This document shows positions 44,884 through 53,975 of a DNA stretch of 64,000 nt, in pieces. A program made the position numbers and the translations under genes. Below the pieces are notes generated by a model. It worked only from the letters and a program-made list of their open reading frames with translations. It was not told where the DNA came from and searched no databases. Numbering within the stretch: position 1 is the first letter of the stretch; every line of letters starts with the position of its first letter. Location: assembly GCF_014647455.2 (NCBI RefSeq), contig NZ_BMPF01000001.1, positions 62,001 through 126,000 of the forward strand. Direction: 5' to 3'. This DNA comes from Halarchaeum grantii. Lineage in GTDB: Archaea; Halobacteriota; Halobacteria; Halobacteriales; Halobacteriaceae.

Positions 44884-45549
44884 ATGCCAGCAACTCGGGA
44901 GCGGTCCCTGACGGAGCGCGATTTCGAACGCTTGATCCGGGCGACCTACCGGATCGACGACGACGAGAAGGCGCTCGAAGCGCGCGCGCTCGTCCTCGTC
45001 GGTGGTCGCCTCGGACTCCGGCCCGGCGAGTTCACGCACCTCTCCTCGTCGTGGATCGACTGGCAACGCCAGATGATCCGCATCCCGAGCCACCACCAGT
45101 GTACGAAGGGCCGAGACGGTAGTCTCTGTGGGTACTGTCGGCAGGTCATCGAACAGCAGGTCCAGTCGTCGGACCGGAGCTTCGCGGAACTCGAACGGGA
45201 GTACTGGCAGCCGAAGACGACCGCTGGCGCGCGCGCCGTCCCCTTCCACTTCTCTCCCCGGGTCCACGTCGCACTGGAGTTCCTCGACGAACGCCACGAC
45301 GGCTGGCCGTACTCGTTCTCTACGGTACAGCGCCGCCTCAACACGACGCTCGATCACGCGCCGCGACTACCGGCGGACGCGACGTCACCGCACGGGCTCC
45401 GCGCGACTGCGGCCTCCTATCACGCCAGTCGGGGTTTGGACATGCCCGCGCTTCGCGCGATGTTCGGCTGGAAGGACCTCGAAACCGCCCAACAGTACCT
45501 CAACGTCGACGGTGCGATGACGCGCCGCGCGCTCAGCAGTATCCACTGA
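44884..45549 (+). CDS. Tyrosine recombinase catalytic domain with Cys/His insert
   Basis: 221 residues, without an N-terminal core-binding domain. Arg in GGRLGLRPGEFTHL, a Cys/His insert (HHQCTKGRDGSLCGYCRQ) that could bind zinc, then PKTTAGARAVPF (Lys of the beta-hairpin), HGLRATAASYHA (H-x-x-R then His), WKDLETAQQYLNV with Tyr nucleophile. This is a widespread haloarchaeal integrase-like family often found in islands. Third recombinase in the element; its site is unknown. Confidence 0.82.
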   Translation: MPATRERSLTERDFERLIRATYRIDDDEKALEARALVLVGGRLGLRPGEFTHLSSSWIDWQRQMIRIPSHHQCTKGRDGSLCGYCRQVIEQQVQSSDRSFAELEREYWQPKTTAGARAVPFHFSPRVHVALEFLDERHDGWPYSFSTVQRRLNTTLDHAPRLPADATSPHGLRATAASYHASRGLDMPALRAMFGWKDLETAQQYLNVDGAMTRRALSSIH

Positions 45550-45591: not shown

Positions 45592-48500
45592 TCAGGCGAG
45601 GTCGTCGTACTTCGCCAGCACCGTCTCGAAGTACTCCTCGTCCATCAGGCGGGGGTTGTGTACGCGGTGGAAGTCGTCGAGGACGAACGCCGTCTGATCG
45701 CGGTCGAGCTCGTAGGCGTGGAACGCAGCGGCGTCGAGTTCGGCCTGCACCTCGCGGCGCTCGGCCATCTCCGTCGCCGGTTCGATACCGCCGAGGCGGT
45801 TACGCATCTCCTCGAAGCCCTCCCCATAGCAGTTGAGCCGCGCGGCCCGCGTCCAGATGTAGTCGAACCACTCGTCGCCCTCAGTAAGGCGGGGTGCCTG
45901 TGACTCTTTCAGTTTGTAAAAGACGACAGTCGAGTCTACCTTCGTCCGCATGAGGAAGTCGAACGGGAGACTATTGAGGAGACCGACCGTCACGAACAGT
46001 TCCTCATCAGAGTAAATGCGCTCGTAAGCGCCGTGAAGCGGCATTTCGGAGAGGTCGTCTTCCTCGGGAGACACCTCGTAAGGCCGGAGGGTCGGGACCT
46101 TATCGTGACAGACCACTCCTTTCGGGAGAACCGTCGAGATGAGCGTTCGCTCGTCAGTTGAGCGAGCGATATCCCGATAGGAGATACGATATTCAGTGCA
46201 ATCGAGAAGCACGTCGTCCTCCGACAGCGGCTCCCCGCGATGCTCTTCGAGAAGGTCGTTTACGAAGCCGATTTGCGAACCCGAGCCATCGAAGGCGTCG
46301 TAGAGACCACGCTTCAGTTTCGGGAGGCTTTTCTCTCGAATCCGGCGCTTTGCGCTCAGCTCGGGGTTTTCCTCTTCGTCAACGCTCCAGAACTTCGGCT
46401 CCTCCAAGTCAGCCAAGACAGACGAGTCATACATGAACTGGTAGATGTTACTCCCGCCGAGAACCGGATAGTCGCCACTCTCATCGGACTCAACGAAGCG
46501 GTCAACATCGTTTCCCCTATCTAATTCTCGATATGGTTCTACGTACCAACTGGACTCTATCTGTTCCGTAATTGGTGGGTGTTGGAGTATCGTATTCAAA
46601 ATCCGCACTTCCTCCTGTGAATCGAGATACGGAAAGATAGCGGCCTCAGGGGAATACTCTCGCAAGACACGGCGTGGAATAGAAAGGGCGTGCTTCTCGA
46701 ACTCCTTCAGCACGTTCACATCGTTTTGCTGGAAGACTCCTTTGAGTTCGTCCGTTGAACCTCTATTCTCGAAAGCGAGAACCCCGAAGTTGTACCGGTT
46801 GTCTATCTCGGGGAAGATCCCCTTGTTCTCGAACGTGATGAGTGACTTGATCTCTGTCTCATCGAGTAAATGTAGTCGAAGGTCTTTGGTCGACGAGCCA
46901 TTGAAAATCGCGCCCGGTAGTACCTGCGAGACGTATCCGTCGTCACGGGCTATCTGGAAGACCCGTTCGAGGAACAGCGCAGAGAGATCGTTCTCAGTTG
47001 CCTGAGTTCTACCTGCGACCGTCGGCCGCTGAAGTTCGTAGTCGTCTGTGTTGTTGAAGTAATCCGCCTGAATCTCCACGCTCCGTTTGTATTCTTCCCA
47101 CCCCTCCCGGATATCAGGATCCTCCATCAATTCGTCTTGCCGGGCCTTTTTCGCTTCCGGGAGGAGCGTCCTGAACTCGGGATCAAACCGGGTGAAGTAA
47201 TCGTCACGCTGAGGAGTGATTCTGTCCCACGGCGGGTTTCCGATGACTACGTCGAAGCCACCATCGGCGTATACCTCAGCGAACTCCAGCACCCAGTTGA
47301 ACGGTTCCATCTCGGCGACCGTCTCCGTGGCTATGTCTTCAATGCCGGCTTCCTCAAAGTCCCGCTGTATATCGCCGATGAGCTCCTCGCGGGCGATCTC
47401 CAGTTTCTCATTCGCTCGCGTTCGGTGTTCCTCAGCGGTCTCGCTGTCGAGCGCGTTCTCGTGCGCTTCGATTTCCTCGATGATGTCCTGATAGCGGTCG
47501 CGGACGCTGTCCTCGCTGAAACTCCCGAGTCTGTAATCACCCTCATCGGTCGTCTCGGGGAAGCCCGTGTATCCGATCAGGCTGTTCCCCTCGCGGAGGT
47601 TGAACGCGACGTTCGGGAGGGCGAGCGCGTCGTCCCCGGCGAGGTCGTCGACGTTCTCAGTTTCGAGCGCCGAGATGACGGAGAGCCAGCATCGGAGTTT
47701 CGCAATCTCAACCGCCGGCCCCATCAGGTCCACGCCGTAGATATTGTTGAGGACGGTCGTTTTGCGGAGTTTGTACGCGTCGGGGTAGGAATCGGACCGA
47801 GCGTACAGCGCTCGGCGGACGTTGACGATCTCTTCGAGGACGGACGTGAGGAAATGCCCGCTCCCGCAGGCCGGATCGACCACGCGAAACTCGTCAACCT
47901 CGGCGAGGAGCGCGCTTATCGTACTCCAGCGCCCCGGGAGTTCCTCAATGAGGTCGTACACCGAGTCGAAACCCCATGCCTCGTGTTCGGGCCAGTCGGC
48001 GCGTTCGACCAGCGCGGTTTCGAACCGGTCGAGGAGCGCTGGCCGGACGGTCTCCTCGGCGGAGAATCGCGTTATCTCGCTAGGCGTGTAGTACGCTCCG
48101 AGCTCCTTGTTCGTGTCGGCGTTGTCGCTCGTGACGTAGTTGATCGTCTTCTCGAAGACGTTCCCGAGGACGCTCGGGTCGAGGTCGGTCGGCGCGCCTC
48201 CCGCCGAGAAGCTGTACCGTTCGAGGAGGTCAACGATGGAGAGGAGGACGGAGTTCCGGACGTCGAAGTCCGCTTCGTTCTCAATCGTGGCCCGGAAGAG
48301 CCCGCCGTTGAGGTAGGGGATACCTTCGAAGAGGTCGATGTTCTGAACGTTGGCGGGGCGGTTCCCGCGTTCCTCGTTCAGGACGTCGTAGAAGAGCGGC
48401 TGGAGAAACGTCTCGTAGAACGACCCGGGATACACCCCGTCCCGATAGGTGTCCTTGAGGGTGTAGAGCAGGTCGGGGTGGACGAGGGACTTGTCTTCGA

Positions 48501-49419
48501 GGAACTTGATGAAGACGAGCCGGTTCATCAGTTCGACCGAGAACAGCCTGACGTCGTCCTCGTTCGCCCCGTCCGCTGCGACGACGCCGTCACCGACGAG
48601 CGAGCGCGTGGTCGTCTCGTCGTCGTCCACGACACCGAAGACGTACCGGACGTAGTCGTCGTAGAACTCGTCCGTTATCTCCTCGCGCTTGCGTTCGATG
48701 ACTTGGCGGGCGTCGCCCGCGATGATGACGAAGTTCTCGTATTCGAACGTTCGGAGGAGACGAGAGACGGGGTCACGGTCGGCATCGAGAACGGCTTCGG
48801 TCGGATCTTCGCGCCGTCCGACCTGATTCTCGAAGAGCGCGAGGAGGACTGGGCGGAGGTCTACTTCCTCGATGACGTTGTGGGTGTACGAGTCCGGGTC
48901 GTACCGAACGAAGACCCAGCGGAGGCCGTCGGTTGCGAAGCCGAAGTCCGACTCGAACTCCCGCTGACTGAGCCAGTCCCGGACCTGCCCGAGCCCGTGC
49001 TTTCGGCTGTGCAGGTCCTTGTTAATGGGTTCCGCTTCGATGAGGAGTCTCGTCGAGTCGATTTCGTCGTGCTCGCGGAGCGAGGCCGCGTAATCCGCGA
49101 CCCGTGTCCGACCTCCCGAGAGGCCACCGGCTTCGGTCGCGTAGTCGTATCCGAGTGCGTCGAGAAGCGGATCGACGACGGCGTCCTGCGTGAACGATTC
49201 CGGTTGGAGACCGTCGCGCGTCATGCTCGCTTTGAGCTGGTAACTTCCGGAGTCCGCGCGAAGGACCCTCTCCAGCGTGTCGTCGTCTATCTGCTTACGG
49301 AGATTCGAAACGATGGCGTCCAGCGTCTCGATGGCCTGATCGACCGCATCAGCGTCAACGGACGTCTCGAATTCCCGGGCGACGAAAGCGGTCTGTCCCG
49401 AGGAAGAGTTCGCGGACAT
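45592..49419 (-). CDS. Type IIG restriction-modification protein (Eco57I-type), RM1
   Basis: 1275 residues combining restriction, methylation and target recognition. N-terminal nuclease-like domain: VADY then LLIEAEPINK (about 125-135), where the expected E-x-K lysine is Glu. Helical spacer to about 420. Methylase: GAYYTPSEITRF, motif I VVDPACGSGHFL (about 516), VLNNIYGVDLMGPAVEIAKL, motif IV VVIGNPPWDRI (about 726). C-terminal target recognition from about 850 (SQVLPGAIFNGSSTKDLR) to the end. Faces away from RM2 across a 293-bp region with shared boxes. Modifies adenine by family rule; sequence target unknown. Confidence 0.9.
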   Translation of the reverse strand: MSANSSSGQTAFVAREFETSVDADAVDQAIETLDAIVSNLRKQIDDDTLERVLRADSGSYQLKASMTRDGLQPESFTQDAVVDPLLDALGYDYATEAGGLSGGRTRVADYAASLREHDEIDSTRLLIEAEPINKDLHSRKHGLGQVRDWLSQREFESDFGFATDGLRWVFVRYDPDSYTHNVIEEVDLRPVLLALFENQVGRREDPTEAVLDADRDPVSRLLRTFEYENFVIIAGDARQVIERKREEITDEFYDDYVRYVFGVVDDDETTTRSLVGDGVVAADGANEDDVRLFSVELMNRLVFIKFLEDKSLVHPDLLYTLKDTYRDGVYPGSFYETFLQPLFYDVLNEERGNRPANVQNIDLFEGIPYLNGGLFRATIENEADFDVRNSVLLSIVDLLERYSFSAGGAPTDLDPSVLGNVFEKTINYVTSDNADTNKELGAYYTPSEITRFSAEETVRPALLDRFETALVERADWPEHEAWGFDSVYDLIEELPGRWSTISALLAEVDEFRVVDPACGSGHFLTSVLEEIVNVRRALYARSDSYPDAYKLRKTTVLNNIYGVDLMGPAVEIAKLRCWLSVISALETENVDDLAGDDALALPNVAFNLREGNSLIGYTGFPETTDEGDYRLGSFSEDSVRDRYQDIIEEIEAHENALDSETAEEHRTRANEKLEIAREELIGDIQRDFEEAGIEDIATETVAEMEPFNWVLEFAEVYADGGFDVVIGNPPWDRITPQRDDYFTRFDPEFRTLLPEAKKARQDELMEDPDIREGWEEYKRSVEIQADYFNNTDDYELQRPTVAGRTQATENDLSALFLERVFQIARDDGYVSQVLPGAIFNGSSTKDLRLHLLDETEIKSLITFENKGIFPEIDNRYNFGVLAFENRGSTDELKGVFQQNDVNVLKEFEKHALSIPRRVLREYSPEAAIFPYLDSQEEVRILNTILQHPPITEQIESSWYVEPYRELDRGNDVDRFVESDESGDYPVLGGSNIYQFMYDSSVLADLEEPKFWSVDEEENPELSAKRRIREKSLPKLKRGLYDAFDGSGSQIGFVNDLLEEHRGEPLSEDDVLLDCTEYRISYRDIARSTDERTLISTVLPKGVVCHDKVPTLRPYEVSPEEDDLSEMPLHGAYERIYSDEELFVTVGLLNSLPFDFLMRTKVDSTVVFYKLKESQAPRLTEGDEWFDYIWTRAARLNCYGEGFEEMRNRLGGIEPATEMAERREVQAELDAAAFHAYELDRDQTAFVLDDFHRVHNPRLMDEEYFETVLAKYDDLA

Positions 49420-49430
49420 CCTTCGTTACG

Positions 49431-49447
49431 GAGCGTGCCGATTGCCC
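49431..49447 (+). promoter_or_regulatory. Box A of the divergent RM region (17 bp)
   Basis: gagcgtgccgattgccc, 11 bases before the RM1 start codon. Read on the RM1 strand the shared core is GCAATCGGCACGCT. Identical to the 17 bases at 49496-49512. Confidence 0.7.
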
Positions 49448-49495
49448 GCGCCCCCGTCTTACGAGAAGCAGAGAGGCGATAGAAGACGGGCTAGA

Positions 49496-49512
49496 GAGCG
49501 TGCCGATTGCCC
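49496..49512 (+). promoter_or_regulatory. Box B of the divergent RM region (17 bp, direct copy of A)
   Basis: gagcgtgccgattgccc, 65 bp from box A, same orientation. Confidence 0.7.
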
Positions 49513-49675
49513 AAGTTGTCATAGCCGACACCAACCGAAAGACTGGGTCCAGCACCGAGGAAACGGAGTTGCATCAGTGGATAGATATTCTCAATCGGGG
49601 CGTATATCATCTTTTCTGTATCACTAGTATTCCTCGAAATACCTCACACGCTTGCTAGAATACGCGTAGATACGA

Positions 49676-49689
49676 GCAATCGGCACGCT
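49676..49689 (-). promoter_or_regulatory. Box C of the divergent RM region (14 bp, inverted)
   Basis: gcaatcggcacgct on the forward strand, the exact inverse of the core of boxes A and B, 23 bases before the RM2 ATG. Relative to its gene it has the same orientation as box A has to RM1. Confidence 0.7.
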
Positions 49690-49712
49690 ACATTGTGCAC
49701 GGATGGCCATCG

Positions 49713-52700
49713 ATGAGCCAGGCGACGTTGGGCTCGGCCTACCAGAATTCGAGTCTCTTCTCCGGCTACTATCTCGACGAACGCGTCTACGATCTCGACG
49801 GGTGGGACTGCGACGAGGGAGCGCGGGAAGCGCTCGCGGAGCTCCGAGAGCTCTGGGATCTCGAACGAGACCTCGTCGCCTCCTACAAGGAGGACGAGCT
49901 GCTCGACTCGTGGATCGACGAGGTCCTCGATATTCTCGGGTTCGGGACGCTCTCCGAGACGACCCTCCCCGCCGGTGGCGGGTACAACGATCGCCTGTTG
50001 TTCGAGTCGGCGGACGTCCGCCGGAAGGCGGCGACGCGGAAACGCGACGGAGATCAAGACGCCGCGTACAACCTCAGCGCCGCACTCCTCGAAGCCAAGC
50101 AGTGGGACGCGGACTTCACGACGCGGTTCAGCGAGCAGCGCTCGTACCGCGACGCGTCCCACCAGATCAAGTACTACCTGGAACACACGCCGGAGGACGT
50201 CGAGTGGGGCGTTCTCACGAACGGCCGGAAGTGGCGGCTCTACGGGACGAAGGACTACGCCACGGAGATCTACTACGAGGTCGATCTGCCCGAACTCCTC
50301 GAATCCGGGACGCTGGAGCAGTTCAAGTACTTCTACGTGTTCTTCCGACCCGAAGCCTTCCGGAAAACCAGCGGGACGTCGTTCCTCGATACGGTCTGGA
50401 ACGAGAGCGAGACCGCCTCACAGGAACTCGGAGAAGACCTCCAAGGCAACGTCTTCACGGCGCTCCGCATCCTCGGCGAGGGGTTCCTTCGGACGAACGA
50501 CGGACTCGAACTTGACCCTGAGGACGAAGATGATCTCGCTGAGCTCAAAGAACAGTCGCTCGTGCTCCTCTATCGATTGATGTTCGTGCTCTACGCGGAG
50601 TCGCGGGACCTCATTCATCCCGAGAACCCGGCGATGCGCGACGAGTACGACCAGCACTTCGGGCTCAATCACCTCCGGTCGCGGATCCACGAGGACGTCC
50701 AGTCCGGCGACGACTTCGAGGACTACAGCGAGATATCCACGCAGATGTGGGGGCGGCTCGACGAGCTCTTCACCCTCATTGACGAGGGCGAAGAATCGCT
50801 CGGCATCCCGCCGTACAACGGCGGGCTCTTCGACGCCGACGACCACGAATTCCTCGCTGAGCACGCCGTCGCCGACCGCTACATCGCCGAAGTGATCTAC
50901 CGGATCGGGACCACTGAGACCGAGGACGGTGAGTTCGTCCTCGCGGACTACGCCGACCTCGACACCCGCCACCTCGGTACCATCTACGAGGGGCTCCTCG
51001 AACACGAGTTCCGGATCGCCCCTGACGAGTACGCGGCCGTCTCTGAGGACGGCGGACAGGTCTGGAAGCCCGCGACAGAGGTGAGCGTCGCCGACGCCGT
51101 CGAAACCGTTGACGAGGGTGATCTGTATGTCGTAAACGACGACGGGGAACGCAAAGCGACGGGCGCGTACTACACTCCCGACTACATCGTCTCGTACATC
51201 GTCGAGGAGTCAGTCGGATCTCTCGTCGACGACATCGAAGCCGATCTAGAAGTCGAGGGGTTATCTCGTAGCGACTCGGAATACTTTCGCCGGTTCTGGC
51301 AGGAGGTCCTCGATTTGAAAATCCTCGATCCAGCGATGGGCAGCGCTCATTTTCTCACCGCTGCAACCGGATACCTGACCGAACGTGTCATGGCGGTGGT
51401 CCGGGAGCAGGAAATACAGGGATATAGCGAGCGAGATCTCAGGCGAGAAATCGCCCGTGAGTGCATCTATGGCGTGGATATCAACGGAATGGCGGTCGAG
51501 TTGGCGAAGCTCTCGATGTGGTTGGAGACTCTCGCTACCGACCAGCCCCTTGCGTTCCTCGATCATCATCTCAAATCTGGGAACTCGTTAATCGGGAGCG
51601 ATATCGCACATGTCCTCGATGGCGACTTAGAGGGGGCTGATTCGGGCCAGTTAACGCTTCAACAATCCTTCGAGCACACTCGTGCGAGAGCTCTCGAACA
51701 CGTTCTCGAAAGATTCACCGACCTGCTTTCTATTGAAAACGAGACATTAGACGGTATCAAGCGAATGGAGGCGGTGTACGAAGACATTCGTAGCGACCCG
51801 CTCTACCAGCACCTCCTCTCCATGGCGAACGTACATACTGCCGACGAATTCGGTCTACACGTCCCCAGTGACGCGTACAATCGGATGGCCGAATCACTCC
51901 GGGACGACTCCTGGGGAGAGATCGAAGAGCAAGGCTGGTTTGAGGACGCACAGAAGATGGCCGACGAGAGAGAGTTCTTCCACTGGGAGCTTGAGTATCC
52001 GATGGCGTTCTACGGTGAAGACGGCACGAAGCTAGACGACGCGGGTTTCGACGCTGTGATCGGAAACCCCCCGTACATTCGGATTCAGGAATTACGAAAT
52101 CATTCCCCGGGCCAGGCGGAATATTTCAATCGACATTACGCTTCCGCGGTCGGGAGCTACGACGTATATGTTGTCTTCACGGAGAAAGGACACAGCTTGC
52201 TTAGTGATCGCGGTGAGTTAGGGTACATCGAACCTCACAAGTTCTTCCAGAGTACGTTCGGGGAGGGCATCCGACGGTATATCTCTGAGCGTGGTTCATT
52301 GAAGAAGATTCTGTCCTTCGGCCATGATCAGGTGTTCCCCACCGCCTCGGTGTACACGTGTCTCCTATTTCTCTCCAGGGAGGCGTCTGAGTCGTTCGAG
52401 TACGATGAAGTCTCTCCGGAGACACTCCTGAACGACGAACTAATTGAGCCCAGGACAGTCGAATCGGACTACGGATCCGAACCCTGGGTACTACAGACAG
52501 AGGAGATAATGGAGGTTCTCCAGAAGATCGACGACGCTGGGCCGACTCTCTCCGAAGTATGCGACCGGATTTATCAGGGATTGGTTACGAGTGGAGACTC
52601 AATTTACCTCTTAGAGAAGCTAGGAGAACCTACAGATGGCTATGTGAGAGTCAGGTGTCGTGAAGACGATAGCGAATGGGTGTTAGAAGAGGAGTTACTC

Positions 52701-53975
52701 AGGCCGCTACTGAAGGGAGAAGATGTCCATCGGTACGCCCCTCTGGATCCCCAAAACGTGGTTATATTCCCCTACACGCTGAGTCAGTCTGAGGATGGGG
52801 CCGAGGCGGAGTTTGTAGAAGAACGTGATCTCGCGGAGAAGTACCCGCATACATATGAGTATCTCAAGGAATTCGAAACAGAGATTCGCGGCAGAGAAAA
52901 CGGGAAGATGGACCACGACCGTTGGTACGACTACGTTTACCCGAAGAACCTAACCGAATTCGAGCAGGAGAAAATCGTGACTCCTGAGATCAGTCGCGGA
53001 TCGAATTTCACGTACGACGATTCCGGATACTATCACAAGACGAAGGTTTACGGGATTCTGATCGATGGATCAGTCGCACCCCGGCGCTACGTCCTCTCTA
53101 TCTTGAACTCCTCCGTTCTCTGGTTCTTCCTCAAAAACACCGGATATGCACTTCGAGGCGGCTACTTCACGTTCAAGACGGACTACCTGAATCCGTTTTC
53201 GATACCCGAGGTGAGCCAGAAGAGTCCCGGAGAGAGAGAGAGAGATTACGAACCCGCTATCGAAGCCTTCCTCCAGGGGAATTTAGATCGGTCTAAAGTG
53301 ATCGAGACCGCCGAAGAGAACACCGCGGCGAGCCTCGGATACCTCTCAGACCAGATGATGGAACTCAATAGCCGCTATCACTCGATCAACCGCTCCCTCT
53401 TAGATCACCTCGGAAACTACACGGAGGGCCCGAATCTCCCCGATATCGGGCTCTTTCAGCCAACGTCGTCGAATATCCTCGATGCGACGGCGGAGGACTA
53501 CGAGAAACTCCGCGTCGGCGACGTCGAGACCGAGCGGGACGGGTCCAGTGTGACGTTGTCCGCGACGGCGCGGTATAAGCCCGAGGACGAGGACGCCTTC
53601 GAAACCGACCAGTGGGAGTACACGGAGACCGGATACGAGGAAGCGTTTACGCTCACTGATCTCACTGAGGTGGAAGCCGCACTCGTCGAAGCGTTCGTCC
53701 CCGTCGCCGCAGAGGAGGCCGACGGCTTCGCCGGTTTCCGGGACAACGCGACGAAGACGAACTCACCTATCGACCGACTGAAAGCCATCACGCTACCGGA
53801 CCCCGACGACGTCGCGGACGACTTGGAGCGCTACCTCCAAGCCAAAGAACGGGCTGACGAACTCGACGAGAAGATCGAGAAGACCGACGACCTCATCGAC
53901 GAGATCGTCTACGACCTGTACGGCCTGTCCGAGGAAGAGATCGAGATCGTCGAGTCGTCGGTTCGTAACGACTGA
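49713..53975 (+). CDS. Type IIG restriction-modification protein (Eco57I-type), RM2
   Basis: 1420 residues from MSQATLGSAYQNSS. N-terminal nuclease with Asp in GGGYNDRLLF (about 91) and LLEAKQWD (E-x-K, about 125-127), so the cleavage site looks intact. Methylase: GAYYTPDYIVSYIV, motif I ILDPAMGSAHFL (about 538), GVDINGMAVELAKL, motif IV VIGNPPYIRIQE (about 783). Target-recognition half includes GYIEPHKFFQSTFGEG and YIWxK-like region; C-terminal coiled coil RADELDEKIEKTDDLIDEIVYDLYGL. The central part (about 51.25-53.4 kb) has clearly more A/T third positions than both ends. Stop is followed by a small CCCTC/GAGGG hairpin. Confidence 0.93.
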   Translation: MSQATLGSAYQNSSLFSGYYLDERVYDLDGWDCDEGAREALAELRELWDLERDLVASYKEDELLDSWIDEVLDILGFGTLSETTLPAGGGYNDRLLFESADVRRKAATRKRDGDQDAAYNLSAALLEAKQWDADFTTRFSEQRSYRDASHQIKYYLEHTPEDVEWGVLTNGRKWRLYGTKDYATEIYYEVDLPELLESGTLEQFKYFYVFFRPEAFRKTSGTSFLDTVWNESETASQELGEDLQGNVFTALRILGEGFLRTNDGLELDPEDEDDLAELKEQSLVLLYRLMFVLYAESRDLIHPENPAMRDEYDQHFGLNHLRSRIHEDVQSGDDFEDYSEISTQMWGRLDELFTLIDEGEESLGIPPYNGGLFDADDHEFLAEHAVADRYIAEVIYRIGTTETEDGEFVLADYADLDTRHLGTIYEGLLEHEFRIAPDEYAAVSEDGGQVWKPATEVSVADAVETVDEGDLYVVNDDGERKATGAYYTPDYIVSYIVEESVGSLVDDIEADLEVEGLSRSDSEYFRRFWQEVLDLKILDPAMGSAHFLTAATGYLTERVMAVVREQEIQGYSERDLRREIARECIYGVDINGMAVELAKLSMWLETLATDQPLAFLDHHLKSGNSLIGSDIAHVLDGDLEGADSGQLTLQQSFEHTRARALEHVLERFTDLLSIENETLDGIKRMEAVYEDIRSDPLYQHLLSMANVHTADEFGLHVPSDAYNRMAESLRDDSWGEIEEQGWFEDAQKMADEREFFHWELEYPMAFYGEDGTKLDDAGFDAVIGNPPYIRIQELRNHSPGQAEYFNRHYASAVGSYDVYVVFTEKGHSLLSDRGELGYIEPHKFFQSTFGEGIRRYISERGSLKKILSFGHDQVFPTASVYTCLLFLSREASESFEYDEVSPETLLNDELIEPRTVESDYGSEPWVLQTEEIMEVLQKIDDAGPTLSEVCDRIYQGLVTSGDSIYLLEKLGEPTDGYVRVRCREDDSEWVLEEELLRPLLKGEDVHRYAPLDPQNVVIFPYTLSQSEDGAEAEFVEERDLAEKYPHTYEYLKEFETEIRGRENGKMDHDRWYDYVYPKNLTEFEQEKIVTPEISRGSNFTYDDSGYYHKTKVYGILIDGSVAPRRYVLSILNSSVLWFFLKNTGYALRGGYFTFKTDYLNPFSIPEVSQKSPGERERDYEPAIEAFLQGNLDRSKVIETAEENTAASLGYLSDQMMELNSRYHSINRSLLDHLGNYTEGPNLPDIGLFQPTSSNILDATAEDYEKLRVGDVETERDGSSVTLSATARYKPEDEDAFETDQWEYTETGYEEAFTLTDLTEVEAALVEAFVPVAAEEADGFAGFRDNATKTNSPIDRLKAITLPDPDDVADDLERYLQAKERADELDEKIEKTDDLIDEIVYDLYGLSEEEIEIVESSVRND

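Follow-up and report, generated by a model that had tools for sequence, protein, structure and literature searches.

The 64,000-nucleotide stretch of the Halarchaeum grantii genome analysed here (the window) carries two divergent genes for type IIG-like restriction-modification (RM) enzymes, RM1 and RM2, which are separated by a 293-bp intergenic region holding three copies of a short sequence box. The boxes are more plausibly recombination sites than regulator boxes, and the locus is best explained as a phase-variation switch in which inversion at the boxes by an adjacent Int1-like tyrosine recombinase would control the transcription of RM1 and RM2, a reading to which a probability of about 0.75 is attached. 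Inversion itself appears very probable from the sequence comparisons below, and regulatory either/or switching of RM1 versus RM2 is favoured with moderate confidence. The components of the locus are, from left to right:

44884-45549, + strand: Int1-like tyrosine recombinase of 221 amino acids, a candidate invertase (PF00589, 3e-14); catalytic residues R, K, HxxR, W and Y conserved
45592-49419, - strand: RM1, type IIG-like methylase of the Eco57I family, 1275 amino acids (Pfam PF07669, 3e-26; PADLOC REase_MTase_IIG), motifs intact
49432-49445, - strand: site A, exact box pointing outward to RM1, whose ATG (49419) follows after 12 bases; the same site borders RM1 in G008, a genome from another genus of the same family
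49446-49496, no strand: segment AB, 51 bp, 96% identical in G008 and reversed there relative to segment BC
49497-49510, - strand: site B, exact box oriented as A; contig C1 of G008 stops exactly where B would begin
49511-49675, no strand: segment BC, 165 bp, AT-richer, 97% identical in G008 and inverted there relative to segment AB
49676-49689, + strand: site C, exact box pointing outward to RM2, whose ATG (49713) follows after 23 bases
49713-53975, + strand: RM2, type IIG-like methylase with a TaqI_C specificity domain, about 1420 amino acids (PF07669, 2e-36; PF12950, 7e-13), motifs intact

The box, GCAATCGGCACGCT, occurs in exactly three exact copies in the 3.02-Mb assembly of this Halarchaeum species, which was searched both by pattern and by protein, and all three lie at the RM1/RM2 locus. 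Remaining matches across the whole assembly carry two mismatches each, and with no further exact copies the box was rejected as the mark of a genome-wide regulon. The first-pass annotation of this DNA had placed the box at both promoters, 12 bases before RM1 and 23 bases before RM2, with a third copy between them, in one direct and one inverted pairing and in the same orientation relative to each gene, and had noted a recombinase gene some 4 kb away; each of these observations is reproduced here (A and B on the minus strand, C on the plus strand, and the recombinase at 44884-45549 on the plus strand, 3.9 kb from box A). A and B are thus direct repeats and C is inverted with respect to both, each of the three reading outward to the gene on its own side. 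Identity between A and B extends over 17 bases, of which C has 14 exactly in common, and A and C are 94% identical over 17. When the intergenic region was simulated 2000 times under an order-1 Markov model, three-copy repeats were at most 10 bases long, against the 14 observed, and a 14-bp inverted repeat arose in none of 1000 simulations, so that the inverted repeats bounding the intergenic segment are beyond chance. Contig C7 holds two near-copies of the box (near 64095 and 64529; L021 5690-6639), which were dismissed as unrelated: they lie inside two adjacent repeated pilin-like genes, and occur as a pair because these genes have a near-identical N-terminal segment in common. Segment AB was also considered as a terminator hairpin and rejected, its 8-bp stem not surpassing shuffles (z 0.24 and -1.41).

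According to the proposed mechanism, the boxes would be the crossover sites of the recombinase encoded beside RM1, and recombination of A or B with the oppositely pointing C would flip the DNA that separates the two type IIG genes. A crossover between B and C would invert 165 bp and one between A and C 230 bp, while A with B could delete segment AB. Since the sites lie just outside both start codons, a flip would leave these codons and their short leaders in position and exchange all of the DNA upstream of the leaders. The segment, and presumably its BC part, would hold an asymmetric promoter, so that the flip would reassign the promoter or promoters, to RM1 in one orientation and to RM2 in the opposite one, and the population would be a mix of cells making mainly RM1 or mainly RM2.

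The candidate invertase scores 53.5 bits against PF00589, for which the cut-off is 27.1, and its catalytic set (R, K, HxxR, H/W, Y) is conserved across 12 homologues. No other member of its family was found in the genome, and it lies directly beyond RM1, tail-to-tail with it. Homologous Int1 proteins are present in the phage records of phiCh1 (37% identity), ChaoS9 (38.5%), and phiH (41%), the matches to phiCh1 and phiH covering 94% of the protein, and in the phiCh1 and phiH records an invertible tail-fibre segment is annotated at Int1. A search for a close relative encoded on viral contigs found none. The adjacent recombinase is predicted to act on these sites, to which it is tied by genetic linkage: its gene adjoins RM1 and, in Halarchaeum acidiphilum (G001), a site lies 2 bp past the recombinase stop codon. 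A C..CGYC (or CGxC) cysteine motif within the catalytic domain, possibly a metal-binding insert, is also conserved in the family.

When the region was used to search 392 genomes of the same order, matches were obtained in only three: the window's own genome (G000), G008, and G001. In G008, RM1 is 96% and the recombinase 98% identical to those of the window, and the locus is split over two contigs. Contig C1 runs through RM1, site A, and segment AB and stops exactly one base before box B would start. In contig C9, the first 49 bases are the reverse complement of the sequence around the RM2 start; there follow a box, segment BC, a box with one mismatch, reversed segment AB, a box, and RM2. Segments AB and BC are therefore rearranged in G008 exactly at the boxes, with BC inverted relative to AB by comparison with the window. 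The two 49-bp copies of the RM2 5' end on C9 are identical to each other, diverge from the window by 7-8%, and are joined to different segment ends, as would be expected if both orientations were present in the culture, the contig being a path that an assembler could make. In G001, the homologous 16-mer GGTCAATCGACGCGCT is found exactly twice in the assembly, both times at a contig end: at bp 1-16 of the contig starting with RM2 and, two bases beyond the recombinase stop codon, at bp 5-20 of the contig starting with the recombinase. The chance that a given site falls within 20 bp of a contig end is 0.005 in G001 and 0.0007 in G008. An RM1 orthologue was not found in the G001 assembly, of which contig C77 matches NZ_BATA01000089.

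The same layout is retained with different repeats in other genera. In Haloarcula sp. JP-L23 (CP050016), orthologues of RM2 and RM1 (52.5% for the latter) are divergent and flank an intergenic region of roughly 260 bp with a perfect 24-bp inverted repeat, a length reached in 0 of 1000 simulations. Halobaculum magnesiiphilum (NZ_CP081959) has the recombinase, RM1 (68%), and RM2 (58%) in the order and orientation of the window, and its intergenic region contains a 13-bp inverted repeat (reached in 2 of 1000 simulations) and another of 10 bp. Read outward, the sites are weakly alike (GCAATCGGCACGCT, TCAATCGACGCGCT, TCAATGCGTACTCT, and GCAAGTCGCACAGT). As controls, 40 stand-alone stretches of the RM1 or RM2 family from relatives, mostly of 16 kb, were examined; apart from two marginal matches (E about 7e-4), these contained no copy of this recombinase; a divergent partial copy was likewise absent, and inverted repeats were at background level only.

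A sister family of loci is found in plasmids of Halorussus, Halobaculum, Natronomonas, Halorubrum, and Natrinema, in which a related recombinase (about 64%) stands tail to tail with RM1-like methylases. Here one gene of a divergent pair is full-length and the other front-truncated, and perfect inverted repeats of 25-59 bp lie at the inner ends of the coding regions, an arrangement in which part of the gene itself, and not a promoter segment, appears to be inverted. The long gene is the one away from the recombinase in Halobaculum sp. CBA1158 and Halorubrum salinarum, and the one adjoining it in Natronomonas gomsonensis and Halorussus limi. In the 167-kb record NZ_CP100003 of Halorussus vallis (L125, L126), a 1467-bp methylase segment is inverted between the two record ends at 100% identity. 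These two loci were first taken for a duplication, which remains the alternative explanation; the record ends, however, repeat over 46 kb at 99.95-99.99%, which makes it more likely that the record is an untrimmed circular overlap that caught both states of one locus. The true circle of this plasmid is probably about 121 kb. In two further genomes with sister-family loci (G140 and G054), contigs end at or close to the homologous repeat. The window box showed no significant alignment to the 54-bp sister-family site. In Natrinema sp. DC36 (L209 5290-9613), an IS6 transposase gene, together with long inverted duplications, interrupts the homologous switch locus.

Taken together, it is favoured, if with some reserve, that Int1-like recombinase switches for restriction are widespread in haloarchaeal cells, one branch (the window, G008, JP-L23, and Halobaculum magnesiiphilum) alternating two whole type IIG enzymes by means of an invertible promoter segment, and the sister branch inverting the front part of a methylase between two back halves with different recognition domains.

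Two mechanisms had been put forward in the first-pass annotation, inversion of the intervening DNA and control of both genes by a common regulator. The former is sustained, at the level of sequence, by the sites themselves, the rearranged segments of G008, the contig ends at boxes, the linked Int1-like recombinase, and the conservation of the layout elsewhere with different inverted repeats. A shared controller-like transcription regulator, with the boxes as operators that balance RM1 and RM2, would account for the common orientation and similar distance of the box relative to both start codons and for the confinement of its three copies to this locus. Such a regulator is nevertheless not supported, because the box is absent from orthologous promoters, the repeat sequence varies, and breakpoints coincide with boxes. 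Upstream of the RM1 orthologues examined, the box is absent in all but G008, unlike the C-box-type conservation to be expected of an operator. Moreover, the layout persists in JP-L23 and Halobaculum magnesiiphilum while the repeat changes, the G008 rearrangement breaks at the boxes, and one H. acidiphilum copy stands just past the recombinase stop codon and not at a promoter. Regulation as the explanation of the boxes is therefore considered improbable, though a box could serve both as regulator and as recombination site. Equally improbable is that assembly artefacts around short repeats account for the contig ends and for the arrangement in G008, neither of which would then bear on inversion. 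The first 49 bases of C9 do duplicate its own RM2 5' end, and the odd junctions lie at contig ends. A repeat of 14-17 bp is, however, below usual assembly overlap lengths, and a fold-back chimera would give a palindrome, yet each RM2 copy adjoins a different segment end. On the RM2 side of C9, and not at the contig end alone, BC also stands in reversed order relative to AB; contig ends at sites recur in G001 and, for the sister family, at or close to the repeat in G054 and G140.

The system may alternatively be a relic that rearranged formerly and is now inactive in the window genome, which is unlikely but the least improbable of these three explanations. One G008 site has a mismatch, and the window strain is known from its assembly alone; against this, the recombinase is intact with all catalytic residues, the three sites in the window are perfect, and RM1 and RM2 are both open. 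Several observations do weigh against an active promoter-flipping switch. The core identity of the box is just 14 bp, a scan of the segment for promoters with B recognition element (BRE)/TATA consensus sequences performed no better than shuffles, the G008 evidence derives from contig ends, and at assembly level the second orientation was not seen in the window strain's own assembly. In JP-L23, the recombinase (75% identical) follows RM1 in the direction of RM1, unlike the orientation in the window, and RM2, which is unannotated there, may be broken. The likeness of sites across genera is also weak, the box matching the JP-L23 and Halobaculum sites at 9 of 14 positions in each case (p about 0.03 each, only suggestive).

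Switches of comparable design are known from bacteria and from haloviruses. In the fimS system with FimB/FimE, a short intergenic segment bounded by short inverted repeats is flipped by tyrosine recombinase. The RM1/RM2 locus resembles both fimS and the flagellar switch of Clostridioides difficile in its short intergenic segment, short inverted repeats, and tyrosine recombinase, but those switches turn one operon ON or OFF, whereas here two divergent genes share a segment with three sites. The type IIG system of Campylobacter jejuni varies by a simple-sequence tract and not by DNA inversion, which sets it apart from the mechanism proposed for RM1/RM2. In the C. difficile case, an intergenic segment with inverted repeats is flipped by the tyrosine recombinase RecV (PMC5386303). 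A C. jejuni type IIG enzyme with phase-variable expression, as predicted here for RM1 and RM2, is cited in an inversion survey of 2018 (PMC5903667). Phase-variable type I restriction through hsdS inversion by PsrA in Streptococcus pneumoniae (PMC4948785, PMC7096588) likewise places a tyrosine recombinase beside restriction genes, with inversion altering methylation, as is predicted for the window; it recombines specificity genes within the coding sequence, whereas RM1 and RM2 are whole single-chain enzymes that apparently share an invertible upstream segment. The sister version in haloarchaeal plasmids is closer to hsdS inversion. In the haloviruses phiCh1 and phiH, inversion switches the active tail fibre (PMC4284463, PMC6210493, PMC6471424). 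Their Int1 switch and the RM1/RM2 locus have in common a homologous small tyrosine recombinase (37-41% identity) beside paired genes, inverted repeats, and alternate expression of two genes (predicted for the window). The viral system, however, inverts about 3.5 kb, swaps gene ends, and has its recombinase inside the invertible segment, whereas the segment at RM1/RM2 is about 0.25 kb and intergenic, with the recombinase outside.

The archaeal inversion switches found described in the open-access literature searched are viral, and no description of a bacterial-type flip switch for archaeal cells was found in that literature; an earlier cellular description elsewhere is possible. The 2018 survey reports no inversion in its six archaeal genomes (PMC5903667), and the words "restriction" and "methyltransferase" are both missing from a review of archaeal tyrosine recombinases (PMC8371274). 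Phase-variable restriction is well studied in bacteria, and the proposed switch, if true, would amount to phase-variable restriction in archaeal cells, brought about by DNA inversion. Homologous recombinases would then serve both the tail-fibre module of a virus and the restriction locus of a host, placing one mechanism on both sides of the archaeal arms race.

RM1 and RM2 are each a single chain with an Eco57I-type methylase in which the motifs AYYTP, DPxxGS(G)H, and NPPY/W are present, as in type IIG enzymes. As to an N-terminal PD-(D/E)xK nuclease, RM2 has D..EAK, and the RM1 family has a conserved EAE in place of ExK, which makes RM1 a putative nuclease only; LLIEAEP or LLVEAEP is conserved in every RM1 orthologue examined except that of G008 (EAES), and EAE is kept in all. 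Compared with G008 and G001, the ends of RM2 have 85-96% DNA identity and the middle (window 52079-53400) is not conserved, which suggests that a recognition domain may have been replaced. Recombinases of the same family also occur near DUF1156/DUF499 methylase genes in Haloarcula pelagica (L204 9672-10334), in G009, probably Halospeciosus flavus (L123 8842-9510), and in G100 (L132 8802-9473), where the recombinase is flanked by two DUF1156 genes with matching 3' ends.
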